Shown piece after piece: positions 28,251 through 42,734 of a DNA stretch of 64,000 nucleotides. The notes below the pieces were generated by a model that had not been told where the DNA came from, ran no database searches, and worked only from the letters and a program-made list of their open reading frames with translations. Positions within the stretch are counted from its first letter, which is position 1. Each line of letters opens with the position of its first letter. The stretch covers positions 1 through 64,000 of the forward strand of contig SVPQ01000005.1 in NCBI GenBank assembly GCA_015065845.1, in the 5' to 3' direction. The DNA comes from Oscillospiraceae bacterium (GTDB taxonomy: Bacteria; Bacillota; Clostridia; Oscillospirales; Acutalibacteraceae). Both the position numbers and the translations under genes were made by a program.

Positions 28251-28577
28251 ATGAAACTTTTAATAGGCATAGTTAACAGTGATGACGCTAATGAACTTCT
28301 CGGTGAAATGAATAAAAAATCATTTCAGGCAACTAAACTTTCAACTTCAGGCGGTTTTTTAAAGACAGGTAATGTGACATTTCTTGTTGGTGTTGAAGAA
28401 GAAAGAGTAGATGAACTTATTGAGATTTTTAAGAATTGTTGTTCAAGAAGAACTCAGATGGTTCCTACTGCGCCACCATTTATCGGTGAAGGTTTTTTAA
28501 GTGCTTCACCTGTTGAAATAACAATCGGCGGGGCAACAATTTTTGTTATAGATATGGAAAAGTTTATTAAATTATGA
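28251..28577 (+). CDS. darA: Cyclic-di-AMP receptor (DarA/PstA, YaaQ family)
   Basis: MKLLIGIVNSDDANELLGEMNKKSFQATKLSTSGGFLKTGNVTFLVGVEEERVDELI; followed by holB-ricT as in Firmicutes. Confidence 0.92.
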   Translation: MKLLIGIVNSDDANELLGEMNKKSFQATKLSTSGGFLKTGNVTFLVGVEEERVDELIEIFKNCCSRRTQMVPTAPPFIGEGFLSASPVEITIGGATIFVIDMEKFIKL

Positions 28578-30435: not shown

Positions 30436-30606
30436 ATGGCATACAAAATTACTGACGCTTGCATTTCATGTGGCGCTTGTGCATCAGATTGCCCAGTAGA
30501 AGCAATTTCTGAAGGCGATGGCATCTATGTAATTGACGCTGATGCTTGCATCGATTGTGGTGCATGTGCAGGTTCATGTCCTGTAGAAGCTCCTGTTGAA
30601 GCATAA
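30436..30606 (+). CDS. 2[4Fe-4S] ferredoxin (56 aa)
   Basis: MAYKITDACISCGACASDCPVEAISEGDGIYVIDADACIDCGACAGSCPVEAPVEA; SD aggaggag. Below the ORF-track length cutoff. Confidence 0.96.
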   Translation: MAYKITDACISCGACASDCPVEAISEGDGIYVIDADACIDCGACAGSCPVEAPVEA

Positions 30607-30620
30607 TTGAATTTTTATAA

Positions 30621-30652
30621 AACAGCTCACAGAATTCTGTGGGCTGTTTTTT
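30621..30652 (+). terminator. Intrinsic terminator after ferredoxin gene
   Basis: aacagctcacag aattc tgtgggctgtt followed by T-tract. Confidence 0.85.
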
Positions 30653-30778
30653 TATTTGTAAAAAAATAATTAAATTGCTTGTAAACTCTTTAATTTTAAT
30701 GAAAAATGTGATATAATTCTACGGATAATGGTGTTTTATGCATTCTTGTTGTAAATTGTTGAAGAAAGTAGGTTTTTT

Positions 30779-31837
30779 ATGAAACGATTTATAGATATTA
30801 CTGATTTTACACGCGAAGAGTTGCGTGAAGCAATCAATCTTGTTACATTCATAAAAGATAACCAGCATGTATATGCAAAAGAAATGGTAAACCGAACTCT
30901 TGTAACGGCATTTTCTGAAGACGACAGAAATGCAAAAATGGCATTTACAACTGCTGCAACAAGAATGGGCGGAGCTCACTTCGATTTTAAATTTAAAGAG
31001 GGCGAATCTTTAAAAGATGCTGTTATGGCAATGTCATCATGTGGTGATGTAATTGTTTTGAATCACCCTAAAAAAGGTGCGGCAAGAGCAGCGTCATTAT
31101 ACGCTACAATTCCTGTTGTAAATGCAGGTGATGGTAAAAGAGCGTACCCTGTTAAAACACTTGCAGATATATCTACTGTCTGGATTGAAAAAAATCATGT
31201 TTCAAATATGAAAATAGGTTTTGTAGGTGATTTCAGTAACAATCCACTTGTAAGAGGACTTTTGCAGTGTCTTAATATTTATAAGGGTAATGAGTTTTTC
31301 TTTATATCTGCAAATGGCAAACCTATTACAGATGATTTTATTTCTATAATGGACAGGCGTGAAAAACCTTTTGTAGTTTATGATAACCTTGCTGAACCGC
31401 TTCCTGAGTTGGATGGCATATATTTTACAGAAGTAAAAAAAGAGTCTTTTGATTCTGTAATTCAGTACGAAGCGAGAAAACATTGTTTTACTTTAGATGA
31501 GCGTTTATTACTTACAGCAAAACCAGATTTGGCAATTTTTCATCAGCTTCCACGCGGCGAAGAAATAAGCGAGACTGTCGACTATGATGAAAGAGCAAAG
31601 TACTTTAAAATGCTCGAATATAATGTTGATGCGGCAATAGCTATCATTGTAAAACTTATAACAAAAAGAACAGGCAGACTTATAAAGCCTTGTATGGAAG
31701 AAGCAACACACGATTTTAAATGCCTTAAAGATGATTGCATAACTTCAACAGAAGATTATTTGCCACCGCTTTTTCACGAAACTGCAAACGGTGAATTGAT
31801 TTGTAAGTACTGTGGTCAGAAATACGAAACAAAGTGA
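30779..31837 (+). CDS. Aspartate carbamoyltransferase-like protein with C-terminal PyrI-type zinc domain; catalytic residues largely lost
   Basis: Co-linear with PyrB (NHPKKGAARAASLYATIPVVNAGDG, FHQLPRGEEISETVD); C-terminal CLKDDC...CKYC matches the PyrI zinc motif. Confidence 0.82.
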   Translation: MKRFIDITDFTREELREAINLVTFIKDNQHVYAKEMVNRTLVTAFSEDDRNAKMAFTTAATRMGGAHFDFKFKEGESLKDAVMAMSSCGDVIVLNHPKKGAARAASLYATIPVVNAGDGKRAYPVKTLADISTVWIEKNHVSNMKIGFVGDFSNNPLVRGLLQCLNIYKGNEFFFISANGKPITDDFISIMDRREKPFVVYDNLAEPLPELDGIYFTEVKKESFDSVIQYEARKHCFTLDERLLLTAKPDLAIFHQLPRGEEISETVDYDERAKYFKMLEYNVDAAIAIIVKLITKRTGRLIKPCMEEATHDFKCLKDDCITSTEDYLPPLFHETANGELICKYCGQKYETK

Positions 31838-31841
31838 TTTT

Positions 31842-32402
31842 ATGAAATATAATAAAATTTTAATTGTAGATGGTATAAGTAGAAATGACGGATTTACAAA
31901 AAAACTTGTTGAGTTTTTAAAAAGTAGTGTAAATACAGAAAATGTAGTTGCATTTGAAACATACAAAGAAAAATTTGAGTTTTGTGATGGCTGTAATTTC
32001 TGCGAAAAAAATGAACAATGCAAATACAAAGATTTAGATTTATTTATGAGCGAGTTTGAAACTGCAGATTTAATTGTCTTTGCAACCCCGATTTACAACG
32101 GGATGGTTTCTGCACCAATGAAAGCGCTTATAGAAAGATTTCAACCATACTACTCATATTTTTATAAATATCAAAAAACACAGAAAATAGAAAAACGAAG
32201 AAGTGCAATAATTCTTGCTTCATCCGGCAGAGATGGTGAGAATGCACTCGAGTATATTGTAACTCAGTATAAATATGCTTTTTCTGTAACAAATATTGAA
32301 TTTATCGGTTCTGCTCTTTGTAATTTTACTGATACCTCTCCGAATTTATTAAAGGCAGAAGAAAAAATAAAAAACATATTGGAAAGGATGGATTTACAAT
32401 GA
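31842..32402 (+). CDS. Flavodoxin-fold NAD(P)H-dependent FMN reductase-like protein
   Basis: DGCNFCEKNEQCKYKDLDLFMSEFETADLIVFATPIYNGMVSAPMKALIERFQPY. Confidence 0.85.
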   Translation: MKYNKILIVDGISRNDGFTKKLVEFLKSSVNTENVVAFETYKEKFEFCDGCNFCEKNEQCKYKDLDLFMSEFETADLIVFATPIYNGMVSAPMKALIERFQPYYSYFYKYQKTQKIEKRRSAIILASSGRDGENALEYIVTQYKYAFSVTNIEFIGSALCNFTDTSPNLLKAEEKIKNILERMDLQ

Positions 32403-34045
32403 AGAAAAAACTTACAAAACGCAGTTTGATTTTAATTGCGGTAGTTTTAAGTTTGTTGGCACTTTCTGCTACTGTTATTGCGTTAGAAGTTAAAGACAAC
32501 CTTTTTTATATGAATACACCGACATTTATAAATACAAAAACTTTGAGTTCAGGCACACACGGTTTCAATGTAACTGTAAAGGGAAGCATTGATACCGAAA
32601 AAGATTATGAAGCGTATATGTTTACGCTTTCTGAAAATGGTTCTCTTAGTGTTACTTTTAATCACGAAGAAACTACTGAATCAATTCTTGAAGGTTGGCG
32701 CGTAACACTTTATAGCGTTGATGAAACCGATGCAGACTGGTACGAATATAAAGAATTAACATATTTTGATGCGTTCTGGAATGATGTTACATCTTCCTGG
32801 GGCGAAACAGGTCTTAAAAAAGGTACTTATGTTGTAATGGTTGAACCAGGGCAGTTGTTTTTGCCGGGTGATTTCGATTTAATGATAAGTTTCACACCAA
32901 CAGAAAGTTTTGAAAAAGAATTCAATGATACAAAAGAAACTGCCGATACATTAAGACTTAACAGACTTATTTATGGCTCATCCGGTCAGCGTTCAGGTGA
33001 TGCAGATATTGACTATTTCAAATTCCAGTTGACTGCTGACACTTATGTTGATGTTTCATTTGCTCACGATGATGATAAATTACCACAGGTTGGTTGGGTA
33101 GTAAGACTTCTTACAGAGGATAATCAGGAGATTTCATCTTTTGCCTCAAGATATCAGGACCCTACTCTCAGTACAGGCAAAATCAATTTAAAACCAGGTA
33201 CTTATTATGTATGTGTCGAAACTCAGGTTCAGACGGGTATGACATATCGTATAAAAGTTGAAACCGGTATTTCAGAAACTACTGAATTTGAAATAAATGA
33301 CACACCTGAAAGGGCAGAAATTTTCCCTGAAAATACAATAGTAAGCGGTAGTCTTGCACCAAAGGTAATGGGGCTTGATAAAGACTATTTCAGAATTACT
33401 CTTGAAAAAGAAAGTTATATAACAATAAACTTTACTCACGCTTTTGATGAAAAAGAATTTGATGAAGATTACAATGGCTGGAATGTCCGTCTGTTAAAGA
33501 AAAATGAAGATGGTACTTTAACCGAAATGGTTAAGCGTATTTCAAAATGGAATGACGAAGGTGTAAACATTACCGGTATGGGCTTACCTGCTGGGGAATA
33601 TTACATTCTGGTTGATGCAGATTCAATGAGATATACTTCAGTACCTTACGAACTTATTTACACCTGTAACAACGATATTTTATATGAACACGAAAGTAAC
33701 AATACAAAAGAAACTGCAAATGAAGTAGAAGTTCTTAAAAACTATTACGGTACACTTATTTCAACCGATATGAATTTTGACAGAGACTACTACAAATTTG
33801 AGGTAACTGAAGACAGAAATATTGCGTTCCAGTTCTATCACGACTACACAAGTGACAGTTCACTTGCATGGATTGCTACTATTATTGATGAGAACGGAAA
33901 CGAAATAAAACAAGTTCAATCTGCAAAGAACGAGTATGTTGTTTCAACAGGCGTTATTGAACTCAAGAAAGGTACTTACTATATCCTTATAGAAAATGAT
34001 CTTTACTCTTCAGAAGATACTTACTGGTTCAGAATAATTGCATAA
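32399..34045 (+). CDS. Secreted/membrane-anchored protein with ~4 tandem PPC-like beta-sandwich repeats
   Basis: Recurring E(F/H)E(F/S)N(D/N)T.E.A, D.DYF.F.L, GTYYI.VE; N-terminal hydrophobic segment. Confidence 0.72.
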   Translation: MKKKLTKRSLILIAVVLSLLALSATVIALEVKDNLFYMNTPTFINTKTLSSGTHGFNVTVKGSIDTEKDYEAYMFTLSENGSLSVTFNHEETTESILEGWRVTLYSVDETDADWYEYKELTYFDAFWNDVTSSWGETGLKKGTYVVMVEPGQLFLPGDFDLMISFTPTESFEKEFNDTKETADTLRLNRLIYGSSGQRSGDADIDYFKFQLTADTYVDVSFAHDDDKLPQVGWVVRLLTEDNQEISSFASRYQDPTLSTGKINLKPGTYYVCVETQVQTGMTYRIKVETGISETTEFEINDTPERAEIFPENTIVSGSLAPKVMGLDKDYFRITLEKESYITINFTHAFDEKEFDEDYNGWNVRLLKKNEDGTLTEMVKRISKWNDEGVNITGMGLPAGEYYILVDADSMRYTSVPYELIYTCNNDILYEHESNNTKETANEVEVLKNYYGTLISTDMNFDRDYYKFEVTEDRNIAFQFYHDYTSDSSLAWIATIIDENGNEIKQVQSAKNEYVVSTGVIELKKGTYYILIENDLYSSEDTYWFRIIA

Positions 34046-34067
34046 TTAAAAACAAGGGGGGAGCAAT

Positions 34068-34985
34068 TTGAAAAGAATAATAGCGTGTATACTGGCACTT
34101 ACGGTGTTTGTATCAGTTTGTTGTTCCTGTAACACAGAAAAAACAAATAAGGAAAAAATTCTTTTAGTTGCTTCCTTTTACCCTGTTTATATTTTTACTT
34201 TGAATATAGTTGATGAAATTCCTGAATTTACAGTCGAATGTATGGCAGAGCAGAATGTCGGTTGTCTTCACGATTACCAGATATTAAGTAAAGATGCCCG
34301 TCTTATTTCTGACGCAGATGCTTTTATTATAAATGGTGCGGGTATGGAAGAATTTTTAGAAGATGTCTATATGAGTGTTGATGATATTAAAGTTATAGAT
34401 TCTTCAGAAAATGTTGAAGTTATTGAATCGTGCAACGAAGAACATCACGAAGAGGGCGAGCATCACCACCATCATAATGTGAATTCGCATATATGGATGT
34501 CTCCAAAAAATGCAATTGTCCAATGTGAAAATATCGCTGGAAATTTATCGGAAATGTATCCGCAATATAAAGGAAAAATTGAAAAAAACAAAAATGAATA
34601 TATTGCGCGACTTCAGCTTCTTGACGAAGAACTTGGGGAAAAAGCTGAAAATTTAAAAGGTGAAAATATCATCACCTTTCACGAGTCTTTTGATTATCTT
34701 GCAAATGATTATTCTTTCAATGTTTTAGCAAAAGTCGAAAGTCACGAGGGCGGTGAACCATCTGCAAAAGGTCTTGCAGAACTCACAGAAATTATAAAAG
34801 AAAATAATGTAAAGGTTCTTTTTGTTGAACCTGACTACAAAGGTTCGGCGGCAACAATTTTAAGTAATGAAACAGGAGTAGAAGTTTGTGTGCTTAACCC
34901 TGTTATAAACGGAGAAAAAAATCTTACCGCTTATGAAGATATAATGCGGGAAAATATGAGTGGTATTTTAAAGGCGGTGAGTTGA
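34068..34985 (+). CDS. znuA: Zinc ABC transporter substrate-binding lipoprotein
   Basis: Lipobox CCSC; His-rich loop HHEEGEHHHHHN; ZnuA fold motifs (FVEPDYKGSAATILSNETGVEV). Confidence 0.9.
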   Translation: MKRIIACILALTVFVSVCCSCNTEKTNKEKILLVASFYPVYIFTLNIVDEIPEFTVECMAEQNVGCLHDYQILSKDARLISDADAFIINGAGMEEFLEDVYMSVDDIKVIDSSENVEVIESCNEEHHEEGEHHHHHNVNSHIWMSPKNAIVQCENIAGNLSEMYPQYKGKIEKNKNEYIARLQLLDEELGEKAENLKGENIITFHESFDYLANDYSFNVLAKVESHEGGEPSAKGLAELTEIIKENNVKVLFVEPDYKGSAATILSNETGVEVCVLNPVINGEKNLTAYEDIMRENMSGILKAVS

Positions 34986-35722
34986 TGTCATCACAAAATG
35001 GTTGTGGATTATGTAAAATATCGGTAAAAGATATAGGCGTAAAAAAAGGCAAAGATGTGTTGCTTTCAAGCGTTTCGTTTGACCTTTTCTGCGGTCAGCT
35101 TACTGCATTGATAGGTGTAAATGGTGCGGGTAAAACTACACTTTTAAAATCTATTCTCAACGAAATCAAGCACGATGGTACAGTTACCTTTGAATCACAT
35201 CACGGTGAAAAAATTGAAAATATAACTATCGGTTATGTTCCGCAACATCTTGATTTTGACCGTTCTGCACCGGTAAGTGTTGAAGATTTTATGCTTATTG
35301 GTAGAACAAATTCACCTGTTTGCTTTAAAAAAGATAAAAAACAGTTAAAGGCAATTGACGAAGCATTGGAAATGGTAGGTTGCCTTGAACTTAAAAATAA
35401 AACGCTCGGAGTTCTTTCCGGTGGTGAAATTCAGAGAGTAATGCTTGCAAGTGCTCTTTACCCTTTGCCTGAACTTCTTATTCTTGATGAACCTGTTTCT
35501 GGTGTGGATATAAAGGGAAGCGAAAAATTTTACGAAGTAATTAATAATCTAAAAACAAATTATCATATTGCAATTGCAATGGTTTCTCACGATTTAGGAA
35601 TTGTAAAAGAATATGCAGATAATGTTATTCTTATAAATAAATCTGTATTAAAAAGTGGTAGTGCAGAAGAAGTGTTCTCTTCAAAAGAATTTAAAGAGAG
35701 TTTCTTTTATGGATTGGAATGA
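34982..35722 (+). CDS. znuC: Zinc ABC transporter ATP-binding protein
   Basis: Walker A GVNGAGKTT, signature LSGGEIQRV, Walker B LLILDEPVSGVD. Confidence 0.92.
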   Translation: MMSSQNGCGLCKISVKDIGVKKGKDVLLSSVSFDLFCGQLTALIGVNGAGKTTLLKSILNEIKHDGTVTFESHHGEKIENITIGYVPQHLDFDRSAPVSVEDFMLIGRTNSPVCFKKDKKQLKAIDEALEMVGCLELKNKTLGVLSGGEIQRVMLASALYPLPELLILDEPVSGVDIKGSEKFYEVINNLKTNYHIAIAMVSHDLGIVKEYADNVILINKSVLKSGSAEEVFSSKEFKESFFYGLE

Positions 35723-36561
35723 AAGTAATGAGTTTTATATATGATATTCTCGATGTAATTCTGCCGTTTTCGTGGGCAGATTACAAGTTTATGAAAAATG
35801 CACTTTTAGCCATTATAGTAATTGCTCCGCTTATGGGCATTTTAGGTACAATGGCAGTAAATAACAAAATGGCATTTTTTTCAGACGCGTTAGGGCATAG
35901 TGCTTTAACAGGTGTAGCACTCGGTGTGCTTTTAGGAATTGAAAATGAAATTATATCTCTTTTAGCATTTGGTGTTTTAATGGCACTCATAATAACAAGA
36001 GTTAAAAATAAAGGTAACGCGTCAAGCGATACGGTAATCAGCGTATTTTCTTCAACCGCGATTGCATTAGGTCTTTTAGTGCTTTCTTATGGTGGAGGGT
36101 TTTCAAAGTATTCATCATATTTAGTTGGCGATATTTTAAGTGTTACACCAAACGAGATTTTTTGTCTTTTTGCGGTGCTTTTAGGTGTTCTTAATTTATG
36201 GTCACTTATTTATAACAAACTTTTACTTATTTCTATAAACAGAGAACTTGCGGCAAGTCGTGGAGTTAAAACTGTTCTTTATGAAAATATTTTTGTGGTT
36301 GCAGTTGCAGTTGCAGTTATGTTTTCAATTAAATCGGTAGGTATTCTTCTTATAAATTCATTGCTCATTCTTCCTGCTGCAACTTCGAGGAACATAGCAA
36401 AGAATTCAAGAAGTTATTTATGTATATCTGTTGTTATATCATTACTTTGTGGTGTAACAGGACTTATTACATCGTTCTATATAAATACTTCTGCAGGTGC
36501 TACAATAGTTATGGTACTCGCAACAGTATTTTTCGTAACATATATACTGAAGAAAAAATAA
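35719..36561 (+). CDS. znuB: Zinc ABC transporter permease
   Basis: ABC-3 family permease; follows znuC with overlap. Confidence 0.9.
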   Translation: MKVMSFIYDILDVILPFSWADYKFMKNALLAIIVIAPLMGILGTMAVNNKMAFFSDALGHSALTGVALGVLLGIENEIISLLAFGVLMALIITRVKNKGNASSDTVISVFSSTAIALGLLVLSYGGGFSKYSSYLVGDILSVTPNEIFCLFAVLLGVLNLWSLIYNKLLLISINRELAASRGVKTVLYENIFVVAVAVAVMFSIKSVGILLINSLLILPAATSRNIAKNSRSYLCISVVISLLCGVTGLITSFYINTSAGATIVMVLATVFFVTYILKKK

Positions 36562-41893: not shown

Positions 41894-41967
41894 TTGACAA
41901 ATAGAAATTTGTGATTATAATAGTCTTGTAGCAAAAATATGTGCACGATTTTTGATACCAATTAAAA

Positions 41968-42055
41968 CAGGGGAGCTGGCGGACGTCGGCTGAGAAAGAA
42001 AACAATCCTTTTCTGACCCTTCAAACCTGATGCGGATAATGCCGCCGTAGGAAAA
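41968..42055 (+). ncRNA. TPP (thiamine pyrophosphate) riboswitch
   Basis: ggggagc ... gGCTGAGAaag ... tgACCCTTcaaACCTGATgcGGATAATGCCgccGTAGGaaa; upstream of a ThiT-like gene. Confidence 0.96.
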
Positions 42056-42074
42056 ATAAAGTTTGTCTTTTTAT

Positions 42075-42125: not shown

Positions 42126-42734
42126 ATGACAAACTTAACCAAAAAAGAAAAAAACAGACGACTTGCAGAAAGTGCTTTAATGTTAGCACTTGCAATAATT
42201 TTATCGGAACTTCCAGTGATTTCGTTACCTTTTGGCGGTAGCGTAACACTTTTCAGTCAGGTACCGGTTATATTAATTTCATATCGTTATGGAGTTAAAT
42301 GGGGACTTACAACAGGTCTCGCACTCAGTCTTATTCAACTTATATTCGGTATTCAGAATTTCTCTTATGTAAGCGGTATAAGTGCATTTATGATTCTTGC
42401 ATTTTGTGATTACATAATAGCATTTTCTGCTTTAGGACTTGGCGGAATGTTTAAATACAAAATTAAAAATGATATTCTTGCAATTTCACTTGGTGGCGTT
42501 TTAGTTACTGTTATAAGATTTATCTGTCACTTTATAAGTGGTGCTACAATCTGGGGCGGATATGCCGAAGAAGGTCAATCAGTGTTAGAATATTCTTTTG
42601 CTTATAATATAAGCTATATGTTACCTGAACTTATAATTACTGTTATAGGCTTGGTTGTAATTGCAGGTATTTTTGATTTGAATTCACTTGAACTGAAAAC
42701 AAAAATAGCAAAGAAAGAAAATAAAAGTAAATAA
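42126..42734 (+). CDS. thiT: Energy-coupled thiamine transporter ThiT (YuaJ family)
   Basis: ECF S-component topology; YRYGVKWGLTTGLALSLIQLIFG, HFISGATIWGGYA; behind TPP riboswitch. Confidence 0.9.
   Translation: MTNLTKKEKNRRLAESALMLALAIILSELPVISLPFGGSVTLFSQVPVILISYRYGVKWGLTTGLALSLIQLIFGIQNFSYVSGISAFMILAFCDYIIAFSALGLGGMFKYKIKNDILAISLGGVLVTVIRFICHFISGATIWGGYAEEGQSVLEYSFAYNISYMLPELIITVIGLVVIAGIFDLNSLELKTKIAKKENKSK

Follow-up and report, generated by a model that had tools for sequence, protein, structure and literature searches.

Introduction

Why would a bacterium that encodes a complete aspartate carbamoyltransferase (ATCase) keep a second ATCase-like gene whose product has lost the residues that bind substrate? 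The question is raised by a gene on the forward strand, at positions 30779-31837, of the window analysed here, a 64,000-nucleotide stretch of contig SVPQ01000005.1 from an Oscillospiraceae bacterium. ATCase is a textbook allosteric enzyme and makes the first dedicated step of pyrimidine synthesis. Our search of open-access papers turned up no description of a dead ATCase that is conserved. Inactive dihydroorotases that partner ATCase have been described (PMC4581275), and they resemble the window protein, here called pATC, in being dead homologues from the pyrimidine pathway that are kept in the cell; in those systems, however, the ATCase is active, whereas here it is the ATCase homologue itself that appears to be dead.

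Materials and methods

The case rests on sequence, on partly incomplete assemblies and on a predicted fold. Sequence supplied the evidence on residue loss, in-place descent, occurrence together with PyrB/PyrI, purifying selection and shifted constraint; pATC was aligned with the intact PyrB of its own genome and with 52 intact fused ATCases. The five related records that bear names are metagenome-assembled Clostridia genomes, four of them from the gut of sheep, goat and deer. Genomes with two ATCases were sought in the family (398 genomes) and across the order at an E-value of 1e-25, which also picks up other homologues; the 72 two-match genomes of other families were searched again at 1e-40. 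Where an assembly is incomplete, the lack of a gene was weighed as weaker evidence than an in-place deletion.

Results and discussion

The pATC reading frame is uninterrupted and encodes 352 amino acids. Pfam assigns to it OTCace_N (6.5e-23), OTCace (6.8e-16) and PyrI_C (3.8e-5), and ATCase chains in the PDB match it with E-values of 1e-38 to 3e-48, in agreement with the collinearity with PyrB put forward in the preliminary description of the locus. A carbamoyl-phosphate-type domain (residues 2-134, 30782-31180) and an aspartate-type domain (residues 143-291, 31205-31651) are followed by a PyrI-type zinc ribbon (residues 313-351, 31715-31831) with cysteines at positions 315, 320, 342 and 345, all on the forward strand. 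Structure prediction, proposed earlier as a check, yields a two-domain ATCase fold, with a TM-score of 0.91 to both 6kja_A (E. coli) and 2be7_A (Moritella) and a pLDDT of 85 for an AlphaFold input of 15 sequences (38 for an input of five).

The ligand motifs of this fold are lost, and every substitution previously noted by comparison with E. coli PyrB holds on alignment. The phosphate loop, STRT[QR] in active enzymes (STRTR in E. coli), has degenerated to DRNAK (residues 49-53, 30923-30937, forward strand, as are all motifs given here); the 80s loop (residues 69-76, 30983-31006) is short of six residues and has lost Ser80 and Lys84 (K84 to E); MRHP or IRHP reads LNHP (residues 94-97, 31058-31069), with the loss of Arg105 (R105 to N); and the H.HPTQT of active fusions reads RAYPVKT (residues 121-127, 31139-31159), YPVK taking the place of HPTQ. 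In the aspartate-type domain, Arg167 is lost (NNPLV) and Arg229 and Gln231 are replaced by Glu and Lys (TEVK). Misalignment was ruled out as the source of these losses, close intact relatives aligning clearly. The substitutions recur in related genomes, and are therefore neither sequencing errors nor chance.

Known transcarbamoylases share the motifs SxRT, HPxQ and HxLP and an Arg in beta-4, to which ATCases add RxQxxER in the 240s loop (PMC4581275). SxRT is absent from pATC (DRNA; other residues in its dead relatives), as are HPxQ (YPVK), the beta-4 Arg (R105 in E. coli; Asn in pATC and N, S, K or D in dead relatives) and RxQxxER (TEVKKES instead of TR[IV]QRE); HxLP is retained as HQLP, the relatives having mostly HxFP. 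All displayed dead proteins of the window genus have the six-residue deletion in the 80s loop, which is not found in the intact fused ATCase of a congeneric genome, G010. Of the 14 pocket positions, none has its ancestral residue in the consensus of the dead clade, whereas 46 of the 68 other positions invariant in active fusions do (Fisher p 1.7e-6). The NCBIfam ATCase equivalog TIGR00670, with a cut-off of 236.95 bits, rejects pATC (154.4 bits) and other dead proteins (150 and 175 bits) and accepts both the intact fusion (333.3 bits) and the window genome's own PyrB (341.8 bits).

These losses bear on the idea that pATC catalyses some other reaction, such as carbamoyl transfer to a different substrate. 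Transcarbamoylases that use other second substrates are known (PMC4581275), and the fold is kept in the predicted model. However, SxRT, HPxQ and the beta-4 Arg are gone, and since they belong to the shared carbamoyl-phosphate motifs, carbamoyl transfer by pATC is unlikely. The alignments of dead proteins revealed no new conserved catalytic set. We consider this reading very improbable.

The genuine PyrB that the preliminary description had envisaged elsewhere in the genome is present. The window genome has three OTCace_N genes: an ornithine carbamoyltransferase, pATC and an intact pyrB (L002), the last in a pyrF-pyrE-pyrB-pyrI run with a full-length pyrI. The origin of pATC lies in another form of the enzyme. 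Many genomes of the order encode a PyrB-zinc fusion of about 350 amino acids, with the substrate-binding residues intact in all 52 read, and the zinc fusion was accordingly dismissed as a novelty, being a common form of ATCase in the order. Sampled relatives outside the window genus have either the fusion or separate PyrB/PyrI, with the exception of genus g26, which has both. In many genera the fused ATCase gene is followed by an FMN reductase gene, as at the pATC locus, where the latter (31842-32402, forward strand; Pfam FMN_red, 2.4e-15) marks the ancestral position. The tree places the 15 dead proteins of the genus in one clade beside the intact G010 fusion, nested within the fused ATCases. 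Synteny and phylogeny together indicate that pATC is the in-place descendant of an ancestral single-chain ATCase composed of PyrB and the PyrI zinc domain, apparently inactive by its lost residues.

This ancestry divides what had been said of the C-terminus. A PyrI zinc site without the nucleotide-binding domain is borne out: PyrI_C scores 23.9 bits against a cut-off of 23.4, residues 308-351 alone align with the PyrI model, and no Pfam match to the PyrI N-terminal nucleotide-binding domain was found in pATC. The supposition that a zinc domain had been added to a dead PyrB does not stand, the fusion being ancestral and catalytically complete. Overall, the earlier interpretation is upheld for the pseudoenzyme and for the separate PyrB and revised on this addition. 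The four zinc cysteines are invariant across dead and active fusions. Elsewhere, the PyrB-zinc fusions L068, L073, L075 and L077 lie beside pyrF or pyrE and cluster in the tree with separate PyrB proteins, which makes them a further lineage with interchange between fused and separate forms.

Behind pATC, genes for the FMN reductase, a PPC-domain protein and ZnuA-, ZnuC- and ZnuB-like proteins follow on the forward strand (31842-36561), a run conserved in most of the genus and found also behind the intact G010 fusion; a tie between zinc uptake and the zinc protein would be speculative. Between PSP1 and pATC lies a small ferredoxin-like ORF of 56 amino acids (30436-30606, forward strand) with two CxxCxxC-type cysteine clusters; its DNA is strongly conserved in five genomes, and a terminator-like hairpin follows it (30619-30650). 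TATAAT at 30712-30717 (forward strand), conserved in the alignment of five genomes, is a candidate -10 element for pATC that the promoter scan did not call. At Rfam gathering scores the search returned no RNA element related to pyrimidines. The window also holds, on the forward strand, a TPP riboswitch (RF00059, 64.2 bits; 41959-42070) upstream of the ORF at 42126-42734, and a gene for a cyclic-di-AMP receptor family protein (PF06153, 1.3e-35; 28251-28577).

The distribution of the two forms within the genus traces a replacement. Fifteen genomes combine a dead fusion with PyrB and PyrI (in G015 and G016 a contig end truncates PyrB), G010 has the intact fusion and neither PyrB nor PyrI, and in six genomes the gene is missing in place, between PSP1 and the FMN reductase. 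Five of these six have PyrB/PyrI; in the sixth, G003, an 81% complete assembly, neither was found.

A similar combination occurs outside the genus. The family search returned two strong matches in four further genomes, three of them of genus g26; the fourth, G259, was ruled out as a two-ATCase genome, its matches being two contig-limited copies of canonical PyrB. In the order-wide search only G483 still had two matches at 1e-40, and it was likewise set aside, as they are two contig-limited pieces of one fusion. In g26, G372 has an intact fusion together with PyrB/PyrI, and at the same locus G311 and G421, which also have PyrB/PyrI, carry a dead fusion with its zinc cysteines kept. This dead pair groups with the G372 fusion in the tree, and a single origin of both dead lineages is rejected (AU p 0.009). 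By this phylogeny, the dead fusion arose at least twice, independently; both origins lie in the presence of PyrB/PyrI, and they amount to two events only.

The dead copies might nevertheless be functionless relics in decay. Within the genus pATC has been lost at least twice, and is therefore dispensable in some species; one copy, that of G021 (L037:8001-8941), is frameshifted around its LAIFHQ stretch, not far from the contig end, which is either an assembly error or a recent inactivation; and only two dead copies are known in g26. Against decay, 13 dead copies are complete and open, down to 43% identity to pATC. In pairwise comparisons of five close genomes the gene's dN/dS comes to 0.06-0.13, values that are approximate because dS is high; the neighbouring FMN reductase, holB and ZnuA genes give equal or higher ratios, and PyrB, PyrI and PSP1 lower ones. 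Per-site entropies correlate at 0.74-0.79 among active groups and at 0.18-0.21 between dead and active proteins. The most variable parts of the dead clade include the phosphate loop, the 80s loop and the C-terminal helix; residues 5-19, 96-108, 115-127, 137-148, 161-181 and 233-251 and the zinc domain are conserved. Conservation is thus re-patterned rather than uniformly relaxed, which fits a changed function better than decay, and a relic, already disfavoured for the window genus, is highly improbable. Judged by its sequence, pATC is a pseudoenzyme, as had been claimed, and a maintained one: its catalytic residues are lost and selection keeps it. Because this dead form is kept under selection, is differently conserved and has at least two origins, it probably has a new, non-enzymatic job.

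One such job, and the main alternative to the reading preferred below, would be to sense or carry some other small molecule within a remodelled pocket. In 13 dead proteins the former pocket has RAYPV[KR]T newly fixed, together with Asn at 166 and either Asp or Asn at 52. Yet in the dead clade pocket positions are slightly more variable than the rest (mean top frequency 0.695 versus 0.771), and the sister dead lineage differs at the RAYPV[KR]T site (LPCK, LPCD). We regard a sensor or carrier as unlikely.

The reading that we favour, by a modest measure, is that pATC is the displaced ancestral ATCase, dead in place and kept as a non-catalytic scaffold or regulator with the ATCase fold. Of the trimer-interface residues reported for ATCase (D90, R269 and the R65-D100 pair; PMC6056424), D90, D100, R269 and mostly R65 are retained in nearly all dead proteins. 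A trimer is plausible because these residues are kept, and not certain because the phosphate loop and the C-terminal helix, near the trimer interface, are now variable. Glu109 of E. coli ATCase contacts Asn111 of the PyrI zinc domain (PMC6056424); the former position is Lys in all 15 dead proteins, and in the main dead clade the latter is Lys or Arg. The zinc domain may therefore be packed in another way or have a different partner.

In a specific form of this scaffold or regulator reading, pATC would be an extra regulatory subunit of the cell's own ATCase and would dock on PyrB/PyrI through the zinc domain or by forming mixed trimers. The PyrI zinc domain is able to bind the catalytic trimer on its own, the zinc domain of pATC is intact and conserved, trimer-contact residues are kept, and dead copies occur only where PyrB/PyrI is present. 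This co-occurrence would, however, also arise if PyrB/PyrI did no more than render the fusion superfluous, and the replacement of Glu109 by Lys affects the very contact that E. coli uses. Comparing genomes of the genus with and without the dead protein, we found no PyrB column that tracks its presence. Columns 47, 83 and 87 of the PyrI alignment (L135-L154) do separate the two groups; they are a lead at most, and were rejected as a coevolution signal, because all genomes that lack the dead protein belong to a single PyrBI clade, which explains all three. The regulatory subunit is a doubtful possibility, if one with some weight.

Three kinds of ATCase allow pATC to be placed. With PyrB (TIGR00670; E. 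coli 6kja, Moritella 2be7) it shares the predicted fold, collinearity and D90, D100 and R269, and it differs in lacking SxRT, HPxQ, S80, K84, R105, R167 and R229/Q231, in its shorter 80s loop and in the fused zinc ribbon. The PyrB-zinc fusions of the order (L019 of G010 and L020-L066) agree with it in domain order, length, zinc cysteines, locus and downstream FMN reductase, but have a complete active site and, in the sampled genomes, no separate PyrB. The fused PyrB-PyrI ATCase of the Thermotoga type (PRK13376, NF009916) likewise joins catalytic and regulatory parts in one chain; its model of 525 amino acids holds a full regulatory chain, whereas pATC has the zinc ribbon only.

Conclusions

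We propose that a PyrB plus PyrI enzyme took over pyrimidine synthesis from the fused ATCase, which would then have lost catalysis in place and been retained as a pseudoenzyme. Most likely pATC folds as an ATCase, probably trimerises, binds zinc and acts as a scaffold or regulator, with the N-terminal helix, segments 96-108 and 161-181 and the zinc domain as its binding surfaces; beyond the predicted fold, we infer its inactivity, trimer, zinc occupancy, protein partner and regulatory role. That a displaced single-chain ATCase was recycled, with at least two origins, into a dedicated non-catalytic regulator of ATCase, a third kind of subunit, is a tentative and rather unlikely extension. The finding matters for annotation because genes for dead ATCases are easily labelled pyrB. 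The intact ancestor (G010), dead forms and deletions all occur in the window genus, and g26 adds a stage with both enzymes intact (G372) beside dead copies. These genomes form a natural series that shows how an enzyme of central metabolism can turn into a maintained pseudoenzyme.
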